This document shows, in pieces, positions 27,804-50,800 of a stretch of 64,000 bases of DNA. Made by a program: the position numbers and the translations under genes. The DNA is from Candidatus Salinicoccus stercoripullorum (GTDB lineage Bacteria; Bacillota; Bacilli; Staphylococcales; Salinicoccaceae). The stretch is from NCBI GenBank assembly GCA_019113295.1, contig DXHR01000001.1:1-64000 (forward strand), in the 5' to 3' direction. The notes beneath the pieces are model-generated. The model had not been told where the DNA came from. It saw nothing but the letters and a program-made list of their open reading frames with translations, and ran no database searches. Position 1 is the stretch's first letter; every line of letters begins with the position of its first letter.

Positions 27804-28526
27804 ATGGAATTAAGCAAAGTGAAAAATTATGATGAAATGAGCATGGAAGCAGCTAAGATCGTATTTCAGAAAATAGTAGACTCGAACAGGCTGGTACTGG
27901 GTCTTGCAACAGGTTCCACACCGGAAAAGATGTATGAGTATCTTGCGGACATGCTGAATAAGAACAAAGTGGATCTCTCCCACGTCTACACGGTGAATCT
28001 GGATGAATATGTCGGCCTTTCTCCGGAAGATGAGCAGAGCTATCACTATTATATGAGAGAGATTTTCTTTGATAAGATCGATATACCGCTTGAGAATACG
28101 AAGCTTCCAGATGGTGTTGCTGAGGATCTCGATCTGGAGACACGCGAGTACGATAAGATGATCGAAGAGCTCGGCGGCGTTGATCTGCAGATTCTCGGCA
28201 TCGGCAGAAATGCACACATCGCATTCAATGAGCCGGGCACTTCATTTGAATCCGGCACACACGTCGTCGATCTGACAGAAAGCACTATCCAGGATAACGC
28301 GAGATTCTTCGATAAAACTGAAGATGTCCCAGTTAAGGCAGTATCCATGGGACTCGGCACTATCATGAACGCCAGGAGCATCCTGCTCATGGCATCAGGA
28401 GACAGCAAGAAACAGGCACTTAAGGATATGATCCACGGCGAAGTCACCGAAGAAGTGCCGGCATCCATACTGCAGCGTCACCATGACGTGAAAGTCATCA
28501 CAGACGTTGCAGATATAGAATTATAA
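27804..28526 (+). CDS. nagB: Glucosamine-6-phosphate deaminase
   Basis: LGLATGSTPEKMYEYL; VNLDEYVGLSPEDEQSYHYYM; LGIGRNAHIAFNEPGTSFES; ATG after ggaggcg RBS. Confidence 0.95.
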   Translation: MELSKVKNYDEMSMEAAKIVFQKIVDSNRLVLGLATGSTPEKMYEYLADMLNKNKVDLSHVYTVNLDEYVGLSPEDEQSYHYYMREIFFDKIDIPLENTKLPDGVAEDLDLETREYDKMIEELGGVDLQILGIGRNAHIAFNEPGTSFESGTHVVDLTESTIQDNARFFDKTEDVPVKAVSMGLGTIMNARSILLMASGDSKKQALKDMIHGEVTEEVPASILQRHHDVKVITDVADIEL

Positions 28527-28544
28527 GAGTTGGGATTGGATCTG

Positions 28545-28572
28545 GCCCTCCGCATGTGTGCGGAGGGTCATT
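28545..28572 (+). terminator. Terminator downstream of nagB
   Basis: GCCCTCCGCA-tgtg-TGCGGAGGGT-catttgtg. Confidence 0.6.
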
Positions 28573-28667
28573 TGTGTTGGGGACGATCCGGCGGGAGATT
28601 CCCGTCTGCCTCATCGTCGTTTTCTGATCGGTGATAAGTAAAGGCGTTGTCCTGCCTTCGTTTCAGG

Positions 28668-29019
28668 ATCGATGATGTGAAAAGTGGTTCTTACCTCATT
28701 GGTTTCATTCCGTTGAGGTGAGCCCCCCGTTCTCATCTCAATGAAATCCGATCGATGATGTGAAAAGCCGTTCTCACCTCATTGTTTTCATTCCGTTGAG
28801 GTGAGACCCCCAAGCTCATCTTAATGAAATCCGATCGATGATGTGAAAAGCCGTTCTCACCTCATTGTTTTCATTCCGTTGAGGTGAGCCCCCCAAGCTC
28901 ACCTCAATGAAATCCGATCGATGATGCGAAAAGCCGTTCTTACCTCATTGTTTTCATTCCGTTGAGGTGAGCCCCCCAAGCTCACCTCAATGAAATCCGA
29001 TCGATGATGCGAGAAGCCG
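28668..29019. repeat. Tandem array of about 4.2 copies of an 83-bp hairpin-forming unit
   Basis: atcgatgatg phase marker recurs at 28668, 28751, 28834, 28917, 29000 (exact 83-bp spacing); each unit has two CTCACCTCA-like arms and one TGAGGTGAG arm. Confidence 0.95.
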
Positions 29020-29080
29020 GCGACCCCACCTCCTCTACGCAACAAAAAAAGGAAGGACAGGAGTCCTTCCGACAACACAA

Positions 29081-30301
29081 CTATTCTCTTCTGATGCGCT
29101 TCAGGTTTTTCAGTATGCCTTTGTCCGTTGACAGAACGCTGTTTCTATAAATGCTAGCAGCGAGCCAGATGACGGCGGCGATGGTCACAATCAGTATCAC
29201 GATGCCGAGCAGCAGTTCGACCTGGCCGGTAGTCTCATGCATGGCACGGAGCGGCATGACGAACGGTGTGAACGGCGGAATGTAGCTCGAGATGATGACG
29301 AGCATATTTTCGCTTGTCCAGATGTTGAAGATTGCGATATAGAAACCGATCAGTGAAAACATCGTTACCGGCAGAAGCGCCTGCTGCAGATCCTCCATGC
29401 GGCTGATGAATGAGCCGAGAAGGGCGGAAACTGACAGGTACAGCACCAACCCGAGTATCAGATAGATCAGCGAGTAGACGGCCAGTGTGACTGTCCGATC
29501 ATTAGATTCTAAACCGAATTCAGAGATCAGGTTGTTGAAATCGAACATCTGTATCGCCGCGATGACTGCCAGGACGAAGACGATGAGCTGGGTCAGACTG
29601 ACAGAGATCATTGCGGAAATCTTCGCCATCAGGTGGGTCACCGGAGGAACACTCGATACGATCATTTCTATGACTCGGGATGTCTTCTCCATGGCGATCT
29701 CGGTGCCGATCTGGCTGGCGTAGTTGATGATGATGAAGAACATGATGATTACTGTGACATAGAATATGATGCTGTTGAGCGGGTTCATGTCGGCGGCAGA
29801 GCCTTCATCATCAGTTTCCCCCTTATCCGCGGCGATGTCGTAACTGATTTCAGGCGACTCGCCGAGACTGGCTGTTTCTTCAGGTGTCAGCTTGAGTGCC
29901 TGTATCGTATTCATGCGCTGCACTTCAGCCAGGGCAGTTTCGATTTCCGTCTTCTGTTCATCGGGAAGATCATGTTCAGCCGAAACCGTAAACGTCATCG
30001 GATCCGTTTCCTCAAGGGTCAGCACAGCGCCGCCCGACGGGGCATCCCCGCCTTCGTACGGTTCGATTTCAAATTCTGCATCCATGGATTCGAACATCGA
30101 TTCGATCGCCCCGTACTGCGCTTCTTCCGCATCGACCTGCAGAATGGTCACTTCTTCGCTCGAATCGAAGAAGTCGATGATCTTGTCGATATTCGCTGCG
30201 AGGAATATCAGGAGGACGATGATGAGTGTGCTGATGATGAACGACTTTGCACGGATTTTGGAAATATATGTCTGCAGGAACGTCGTCATGAATTTACTCA
30301 T
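29081..30301 (-). CDS. ABC transporter permease (NatB/YhaP-like)
   Basis: TM segment near N-terminus, large extracellular domain, C-terminal TM cluster including IVSSVPPVTHLMAKI; overlaps ATPase gene. Confidence 0.88.
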   Translation of the reverse strand: MSKFMTTFLQTYISKIRAKSFIISTLIIVLLIFLAANIDKIIDFFDSSEEVTILQVDAEEAQYGAIESMFESMDAEFEIEPYEGGDAPSGGAVLTLEETDPMTFTVSAEHDLPDEQKTEIETALAEVQRMNTIQALKLTPEETASLGESPEISYDIAADKGETDDEGSAADMNPLNSIIFYVTVIIMFFIIINYASQIGTEIAMEKTSRVIEMIVSSVPPVTHLMAKISAMISVSLTQLIVFVLAVIAAIQMFDFNNLISEFGLESNDRTVTLAVYSLIYLILGLVLYLSVSALLGSFISRMEDLQQALLPVTMFSLIGFYIAIFNIWTSENMLVIISSYIPPFTPFVMPLRAMHETTGQVELLLGIVILIVTIAAVIWLAASIYRNSVLSTDKGILKNLKRIRRE

Positions 30302-31193
30302 ATTTACGACCCACTTTCGAAATAAAGATATCGTTCAGCGAAGGTTCATTCACCTGGAACCGTTTGAAATATCCGAGCTTGACGATTTCATTGAAGATTG
30401 ACTCGGCATACTGTTCGTCTGATATCTTCAGTGTCGTCTTCTTCCTGACCTGCTTCATATCGAGGACACCCGGCATTCCTTTAAGGAATGAAATGTCATG
30501 GTCGCCTTCGATGATGATCTCCTTCTGGCCGAAGTCGCTTTTGATCTGGTCGATATTGCCGCTGACAACCTGGGCGCCGTGGTTGAGGATGCAGAGCTCC
30601 TCGCACATTTCCTCGACATGTTCCATGCGGTGCGTGCTGAAGATGATCGTCGCGCCATTTTTATTAAGTTCCTTTACGGACTTTTTAAGTATCTCCACAT
30701 TGACCGGGTCGAGGCCGCTGAATGGTTCATCCAGTATGATAAGATCGGGCTCATGGATGATCGAGGCGATCAGCTGGATCTTCTGCTGGTTTCCCTTGGA
30801 CAGTTTCTCTATGCGCTTGTCCCGGTTTTCCGGAACTTCGAACCGTTCGAGCCACTCATCGAGTCTCACATCGATGTCCTTCTTTGACATTCCCTTAAGC
30901 TGGGCGAGGTAACGTATCTGCTCTTCGACTTTCAGTTTCGGGTGAAGTCCGCGTTCCTCCGGCAGATAGCCGATGCGGTTCGTGATGTTGTAATCGATGG
31001 GCTTCTTATTGTAGGTGATCGTACCTTCCGTCTGTTTCAGAAGCCCAAGAATCATCCGGAATGTCGTCGTCTTGCCCGCACCGTTTCCACCGAGGAAACC
31101 GTACATGCTGCCGGTGGGTACAGTGAGATTGATATCATCAACTGCAACATTTTCACTGAATTTCTTGGTAAGCTGGTTCAGTTCAAGTGACAT
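30294..31193 (-). CDS. ABC transporter ATP-binding protein (NatA/YhaQ-like)
   Basis: Walker A GGNGAGKTT, signature LSKGNQQKIQLI, Walker B DLIILDEPFSGLD. Confidence 0.93.
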   Translation of the reverse strand: MSLELNQLTKKFSENVAVDDINLTVPTGSMYGFLGGNGAGKTTTFRMILGLLKQTEGTITYNKKPIDYNITNRIGYLPEERGLHPKLKVEEQIRYLAQLKGMSKKDIDVRLDEWLERFEVPENRDKRIEKLSKGNQQKIQLIASIIHEPDLIILDEPFSGLDPVNVEILKKSVKELNKNGATIIFSTHRMEHVEEMCEELCILNHGAQVVSGNIDQIKSDFGQKEIIIEGDHDISFLKGMPGVLDMKQVRKKTTLKISDEQYAESIFNEIVKLGYFKRFQVNEPSLNDIFISKVGRKYE

Positions 31194-49597: not shown

Positions 49598-49799
49598 TCT
49601 TGGCCGGCGGGTGTCCGGGGCATGATTGAGCGCACGGATGCACAGCCCGGCAGACATGCAATCATTTACGCGCCATTTCCGCTTTTAATTCCAGCGTGCT
49701 CATATACCGGATCACTGTTCCCTTATCATCGCTTCTTAAACGACGATAAGATGAGGCCGCTATGTCATCATCGTTCCAAAACCGACGCTGACATCCCGA

Positions 49800-49834: not shown

Positions 49835-50800
49835 CTATTCGTTCAACGCTCTGTCGATCACCTGGATATTTTCACGCATAAGTGATTGATAGGTTGCATC
49901 ATCTGGATCTCTGTCGGTCAGAACGGAGAGGTTGTGGAATTCCAGCGGCTCGGTGTCGGTTTCCCGCCGGATGGTGTCGGCAATCCTGGATGTGAGGTTC
50001 TGTTCATAAAGTATATAAGGTGTCCCCTGTGCTTCGACGTTTTCTATGATTTCGACGAGTTCCTGCTGGGACGGCTCCTGATTGTTCATGCCGGTGATGC
50101 CGACCTGGTTGAAATGATATCGGTCTGCAAGATAACCGAGGGATTCGTGCGAAATGTAGATGGTGTCGCGCACAGGAGTTCCGGTTATAGCCTTGAATTC
50201 TGCATCGATGTCTTTGAGATCATTCGCAAGAGCCTCGAAGTTTTCATTGTAGAGCGCTTCCTGATCCGGATTCATCTCCACCAGCCTGTCCTTTATCGAT
50301 TCGGCCATCTGAAGGGAAAATACCGGATCCAGCCATATGTGCGGATCTTCCGATCCATGCCCATGCCCTTCATCACCATGTCCATGCGCCTCATCATGAT
50401 CTTCATCCCCGTGGTCATGCCCCTCGTGCATTTCTATGAAATCATCTTCGGAAATGGTGTTTCCCGCTGCATGGAAATTGCTGTGGTCTCCGACTGCATT
50501 TTTGATCTTTTCCGCGACGGGGTCGAATTCATCGGTAGTGTAGAGGAACAAATCCCCGCCGGCGAAGTCGATCATCTCTTTTTGTGTGGGTTCATATGAG
50601 TGAATGTCGACACCATTCGGATAGATCGTCTCCACATCGACCGTGTCCCCGCCAATCTGCTCAGCAAAACTTTTCAGCGGGAAGACGGTTGTATAGATCT
50701 GCATAGTCCCATCTTCACTGCCGCCATCTCTGTCATTTCCACAGGCGGCAAGTGTGAGCACCAGCAGAGCCGTATATATGACTGTCATTATTTTTTTCAT
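49835..50800 (-). CDS. Metal (zinc) ABC transporter substrate-binding lipoprotein, ZnuA/AdcA type
   Basis: Lipobox LTLAACGN; His-rich loop HEGHDHGDEDHDEAHGHGDEGHGHGSEDPHIWLDPV; SHESLGYLADRY. Confidence 0.93.
   Translation of the reverse strand: MKKIMTVIYTALLVLTLAACGNDRDGGSEDGTMQIYTTVFPLKSFAEQIGGDTVDVETIYPNGVDIHSYEPTQKEMIDFAGGDLFLYTTDEFDPVAEKIKNAVGDHSNFHAAGNTISEDDFIEMHEGHDHGDEDHDEAHGHGDEGHGHGSEDPHIWLDPVFSLQMAESIKDRLVEMNPDQEALYNENFEALANDLKDIDAEFKAITGTPVRDTIYISHESLGYLADRYHFNQVGITGMNNQEPSQQELVEIIENVEAQGTPYILYEQNLTSRIADTIRRETDTEPLEFHNLSVLTDRDPDDATYQSLMRENIQVIDRALNE

Follow-up and report, generated by a model that had tools for sequence, protein, structure and literature searches.

The window, a stretch of 64,000 nucleotides from Candidatus Salinicoccus stercoripullorum, contains a row of palindromes lying between a nagB-like gene and the convergent genes of an ABC exporter. 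The features are listed below, together with a small remnant of the same repeat family further along the window.

27804-28526, + strand: nagB-like gene (Glucosamine_iso, PF01182)
28543-28570, + strand: nagB intrinsic terminator (12-pair stem, T-rich tail)
28608-29013, no strand: whole array of 10 palindromes (motif/profile scan)
28608-28640, 28649-28681, 28690-28722, 28732-28764, 28773-28805, no strand: palindromes 1-5
28815-28847, 28856-28888, 28898-28930, 28939-28971, 28981-29013, no strand: palindromes 6-10
28608-28681, no strand: palindromes 1 and 2, older and diverged; their homologues are units of the three-unit arrays that S. sediminis and S. carnicancri carry at this locus
28667-29019, no strand: probably recently amplified part, 4.3 copies of an 83-bp two-palindrome module (TRF)
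29051-29070, - strand: intrinsic terminator of the ABC exporter genes (8-pair stem, T7)
29081-30301, - strand: ABC-2 membrane protein (PF12698), convergent with nagB
30294-31193, - strand: ABC transporter ATPase (PF00005)
49720-49794, no strand: two-palindrome remnant of the same family, adjoining a znuA-like gene (49835-50800, - strand)

The initial annotation described this intergenic region as a tandem array of 83-bp units, and the period is real: the decamer atcgatgatg, which it used as a phase marker, starts at 28668, 28751, 28834, 28917 and 29000, and TRF reports a period-83 repeat at 28667-29019 (4.3 copies, 94% matches, no indels, score 601). The true unit, however, is half as long. 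A scan with the motif CRTTGAKGTGAG (M) and its reverse complement (m) gave an unbroken alternation of the two every 20-21 bp across the array, and with a profile refined on all arrays of the family we count 20 half-sites, each of 12 bp and each inverted relative to its neighbours, which make up 10 palindromes of 33 bp. Each consists of a 12-bp half-site m, a 9-bp loop and an inverted 12-bp half-site M; linkers of 8 or 9 bp separate the palindromes, which recur every 41-42 bp, two of them to each 83-bp period. The consensus is CTCACCTCAWYG-N9-CRTTGAGGTGAG in the nagB array and CTCTTATYATCG-ATYnnnRAT-CGATRATAAGAG in relatives. The phase marker (CGATGATGTGAA), while recurring as described, turns out to be a degenerate M half-site itself. 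A degenerate extra unit suspected upstream resolves into the two older palindromes, 28608-28640 and 28649-28681, which are kept in S. sediminis and S. carnicancri. Because the nagB arrays of those two species are only three palindromes long, the 83-bp two-palindrome module was probably amplified later. As had been noted, no ORF covers the array (none of at least 60 aa between 28527 and 29080).

Searching the source genome with the unit, a check suggested at the outset, gave 43 matches to the 33-bp pattern, all of them clustered, and 0 to a reversed control. These form at least five full arrays in addition to the two-unit remnant: two on contig C37 (the nagB array and one at 74169-74496, outside the window) and the others on C12, C31 and C27. 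Arrays occur in five of 12 genus members, namely the source genome (G000), S. sediminis SV-16 (G010), S. carnicancri Crm (G008), S. halodurans CGMCC 1.6501 (G005) and a fifth genome, G006; the relatives have arrays in common with the source genome as well as additional ones. The same gene pairs carry arrays at nagB in five species, at a NERD-like gene in four, and at pyrG, gatB, a znuA-like gene, ROK/uxuA and ribH in three each (names of flanking genes were assigned by eye, except those with Pfam matches). The ortholog of the znuA-like gene that adjoins our remnant has a full array of 16-19 half-sites next to it in both S. carnicancri and S. sediminis. In the fifth genome, G006, whose half-site is a different one (CGARTAYAAG), the corresponding pattern matches 70 times or more, at a 41-bp period. 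Four of its contigs, C26, C29, C14 and C11 (L158, L161, L162 and L163), start or stop within palindrome arrays; the arrays thus break the assembly and may be much longer than what we see.

The family appears to be confined to this genus. In the seven other Salinicoccus species, nagB and pyrG are without an array, and none of three motif patterns finds a match; in five array-less species (L128, L129, L131, L133 and L134) an msrA-like gene, named by eye, directly follows nagB, and the convergent ABC exporter is absent. Beyond the genus, blastn found no match in 39 relatives, the motif patterns gave isolated single matches only in other genera of the family, and among 66 GTDB stretches chains occur only in five Salinicoccus ones, the rest being single chance matches. 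We reject a plasmid or phage origin on the ground that blastn gave no match in a plasmid or a phage collection. Two further chains, G008 C1-486k and G010 C4-13k, pair poorly (WC 0.47-0.48), one of them overlapping an ORF, and we regard both as doubtful. The doubtful, poorly paired chains, at L115 2376-2777 and L041 1776-1931, lie near a secreted-protein gene family (MKKTLFSIATVTA...). The L115 chain, which overlaps an ORF, is perhaps a chance match to coding repeats. We found no description of these Salinicoccus arrays in the open-access literature, where genome papers on S. carnicancri and S. halodurans give repeat counts only, and as far as could be searched the family has not been described previously.

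The geometry of the arrays is constant, whereas the half-site sequence varies between species and also between arrays of one genome. When no spacing penalty is applied, 206 of 208 m-to-M distances measure 21 bp; the M-to-m distances are then 20 bp (127 cases), 21 bp (59) or 19 bp (3). This spacing rule holds in two groups with different half-site sequences. With G006 excluded, 25 of 27 chains begin with m and end with M, which identifies the whole palindrome as the unit. The 9-bp centre has A/T-rich edges and a variable middle, and the linkers are G+C-rich. The half-sites of the main group hold about 11 bits of information and those of G006 about 14; the two have positions C1, G2, A6 and G10 in common. 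In the G006 palindromes (L158-L164), the partner half-sites usually differ at positions 4, 7 and 11 (identity 0.13, 0.33 and 0.13).

Palindromes that fold this well invite a reading as RNA, in which + strand transcripts form alternative stem-loops acting in 3'-end stability, termination or regulation. The initial annotation took that direction, proposing mutually exclusive hairpins preserved by G-U-compatible changes. The 11-bp perfect stem that it cited (28879-28889 with 28897-28907) is present and even extends to 13 pairs with one G-U; the predicted fold lies well below shuffles (z -9.65 on the + strand, -5.77 on the - strand), and G-U changes in the nagB array fall in 17 cells on the + strand versus 7 on the - strand. 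Low folding energy is, however, expected of any palindromic array, on both strands, and the arm substitutions do not all preserve G-U pairs on the + strand as had been asserted: the distinct differences in the nagB array comprise 7 that give G-U on +, 4 that give G-U on - and 7 that pair on neither strand.

The wider family speaks against pairing as well. By permutation, partners within palindromes are identical at 8.08 of 12 positions, versus 7.92 for random half-sites of the same array, and a similar small excess is seen across linkers (8.16 versus 8.01); this weak excess (p=0.006 within palindromes, p=0.01 across linkers) would allow for a small contribution of pairing or of homogenisation over short distances. 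In G006 the corresponding values are 7.87 and 7.90. Single changes between S. sediminis and S. carnicancri break 33 pairs and make 23 in one frame and break 22 and make 31 in the other, and there is one paired-to-paired double change. Across arrays, wobble-type differences do not prefer a strand: the majority strand has 153 of them, against 162 expected by coin flip. About 14% of partner positions form no pair on either strand. Partner half-sites thus pair at about the random level, with no compensation in the permutation, the orthologues or G006. Rfam covariance models gave no match above the gathering score, and the array lies beyond the nagB terminator. Hairpins with G-U-tolerant arms are rejected by the permutation, ortholog and strand tests, and we consider an RNA role of this kind improbable. 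Of the two options first offered, a structured RNA or a protein-binding repeat, the former is refuted by what we found, a dispersed family without covariation in which arm changes ignore pairing, and the latter fits.

What is conserved is the arm sequence. In five orthologous array pairs from S. sediminis and S. carnicancri, aligned positions differ by 8.8% in arms, 18.5% in loops and 20.7% in linkers (loops plus linkers 19.5%; Fisher p=3e-10), and with the frame set by the other species of the pair the figures are 8.3%, 19.1% and 20.6% (p=1e-11). Were gene conversion between units at work, we infer, it would hardly be expected to protect the 12-bp arms while passing over the intervening 9-bp loops. 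The arms are conserved as sequence, not as base pairs.

The nagB array lies between opposing terminators (28543-28570 on the + strand and 29070-29051 on the - strand), and the pyrG array is placed in the same way, so that these two arrays need not be transcribed on either strand. For the three remaining arrays of the source genome a terminator is predicted on one side only. By a crude ORF call, the gene setting of the 27 chains is convergent in 16, co-directional in 10 and divergent in 1; the true convergent share is probably higher than 16/27, since at least one co-directional call (on C12) rests on an ORF resembling an antisense artefact. The - strand of the C27 array (L035 2954-3189) contains five successive sigma-70-like matches versus 0.8 expected, a by-product of the recurrence of TATCAT in the half-sites.

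We favour, with moderate confidence, a reading of the array as a row of operator-like sites in double-stranded DNA for a candidate DNA-binding protein. A symmetric dimer of a sequence-specific protein would occupy each 33-bp palindrome, with each subunit on one of the two 12-bp half-sites. The half-sites lie exactly two helical turns (21 bp) apart within a palindrome, and palindromes recurring every 41-42 bp, about four turns, would place successive dimers on the same face of the DNA, where neighbours could touch and build a nucleoprotein stretch between the convergent genes. We infer all three elements, namely protein binding, the dimeric state and cooperation of neighbours, from a motif that is kept as sequence, alternates, is phased and, where this can be judged, lies outside transcribed DNA. 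Support comes from the array itself, its geometry and its orthologous occurrence, and also from the conservation of arms over loops and linkers, the absence of compensatory pairing and the opposing terminators; the last three, with the lack of strand bias, are why we favour binding to double-stranded DNA over an RNA hairpin. Counting against it, the putative binder would have to be tolerant, as arrays within a single genome differ in their half-sites; arrays are present in only five of 12 genus members; and some (10 co-directional, 1 divergent of 27) are not between convergent genes. As to a role, chromosome organisation or insulation of convergent transcription units would be our guess. A stronger version, which we put forward only as a tentative possibility, is a genus-specific nucleoprotein system in which a dedicated, fast-evolving dimeric binder covers the rows of 33-bp palindromes of some ten intergenic loci and builds phased filaments there, between one transcription unit and the next; the half-site would drift between species at fixed geometry, a behaviour that may be likened to that of satellite DNA and its binder.

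The main rival to a DNA-binding array is a host-neutral tandem repeat: a non-coding mobile or selfish element, BIME-like or satellite-like, that has spread, grows by tandem duplication, has no host function and sits in intergenic or convergent sites merely where insertions are tolerated. Its lineage restriction, its fast-shifting copy number, the exact duplication of 83-bp or 41-bp modules, the variation of the motif between species and the many loci per genome are all consistent with such an element. We nevertheless consider it unlikely, given that in orthologous arrays the arms change less than half as fast as the loops and linkers, that the exact 21-bp geometry persists in diverged arrays, that positions are inherited rather than reshuffled, and that the Y1 transposase is found in no array-bearing genome (RAYT, Y1_Tnp, PF01797: 0 in the source genome and, among the 12 Salinicoccus genomes, only in the array-less G011).

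Gram-positive intergenic palindrome arrays are poorly understood. In the present family the geometry is strict and measurable, and named type strains offer orthologous arrays for comparison; selection on arms over loops without pairing points to a putative protein that binds double-stranded DNA. The comparison also corrects a natural misreading, in that palindromic arrays that fold strongly are easily mistaken for structured RNA.

Among known systems, TIGR guide-RNA arrays, with alternating 8-12-nt repeats and 9-nt spacers (PMC12045711), agree in dimensions: the Salinicoccus arrays alternate 12-bp half-sites with a 9-bp loop or an 8-9-bp linker, in 5-16 units. However, a Nop-domain protein (PF01798) is found in 0 of 12 Salinicoccus genomes, on which ground we reject TIGR-Tas. 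The two repeats are reverse complements, so there is no strand polarity; the spacers, rather than being unique, recur as copies that share a fixed pattern of A/T-rich edges; and the several arrays are dispersed, with no tas gene seen adjacent. Such a guide-RNA array is therefore very improbable.

REPs and BIMEs are palindromes that cluster at regular spacing between genes, in many cases at a gene's 3' end, and the Salinicoccus arrays share the regular intergenic clustering. BIMEs bind IHF, gyrase and Pol I, and the palindromicity of REPs is preserved by compensation (PMC2817692; for BIMEs see also PMC3733652). In contrast, our arrays have no GTAG-tagged hairpin, are known only as arrays, keep a fixed 21-bp half-site phase and are without complementary mutations that maintain palindromicity; a REP/BIME of the RAYT type is rejected for want of both RAYT in array-bearing genomes and compensation.

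Staphylococcus STAR elements, from the same order, are intergenic clusters with a period of about 50 bp, species-specific abundance and orthologous loci that expand and contract, with no function assigned (PMC3532100). The Salinicoccus repeats are also intergenic and clustered at loci that grow and shrink, but a STAR is a 14-bp direct GC-rich motif, TNTGTTGNGGCCCN, and ours are alternating palindromes. In the 64 kb of the window TNTGTTGNGGCCCN has two one-mismatch matches versus 0.8 expected, which is chance level, and none in the array, so a STAR element is rejected.

The F-plasmid parS site (sopC) consists of twelve 43-bp tandem repeats, most with an inverted-repeat protein site (PMC6238139), and thus resembles our arrays both in repeat length, which is nearly equal, and in its inverted-repeat site. 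It differs in having a 16-bp palindrome, a single locus and a partition operon, whereas the Salinicoccus palindromes are 33 bp long and occupy many chromosomal loci; we saw no par genes adjoining the arrays (nagB and the ABC exporter flank this one, and the nearest genes of the others were identified by eye). By analogy, the Salinicoccus arrays would work most like sopC, and they look most like BIMEs and STAR elements.
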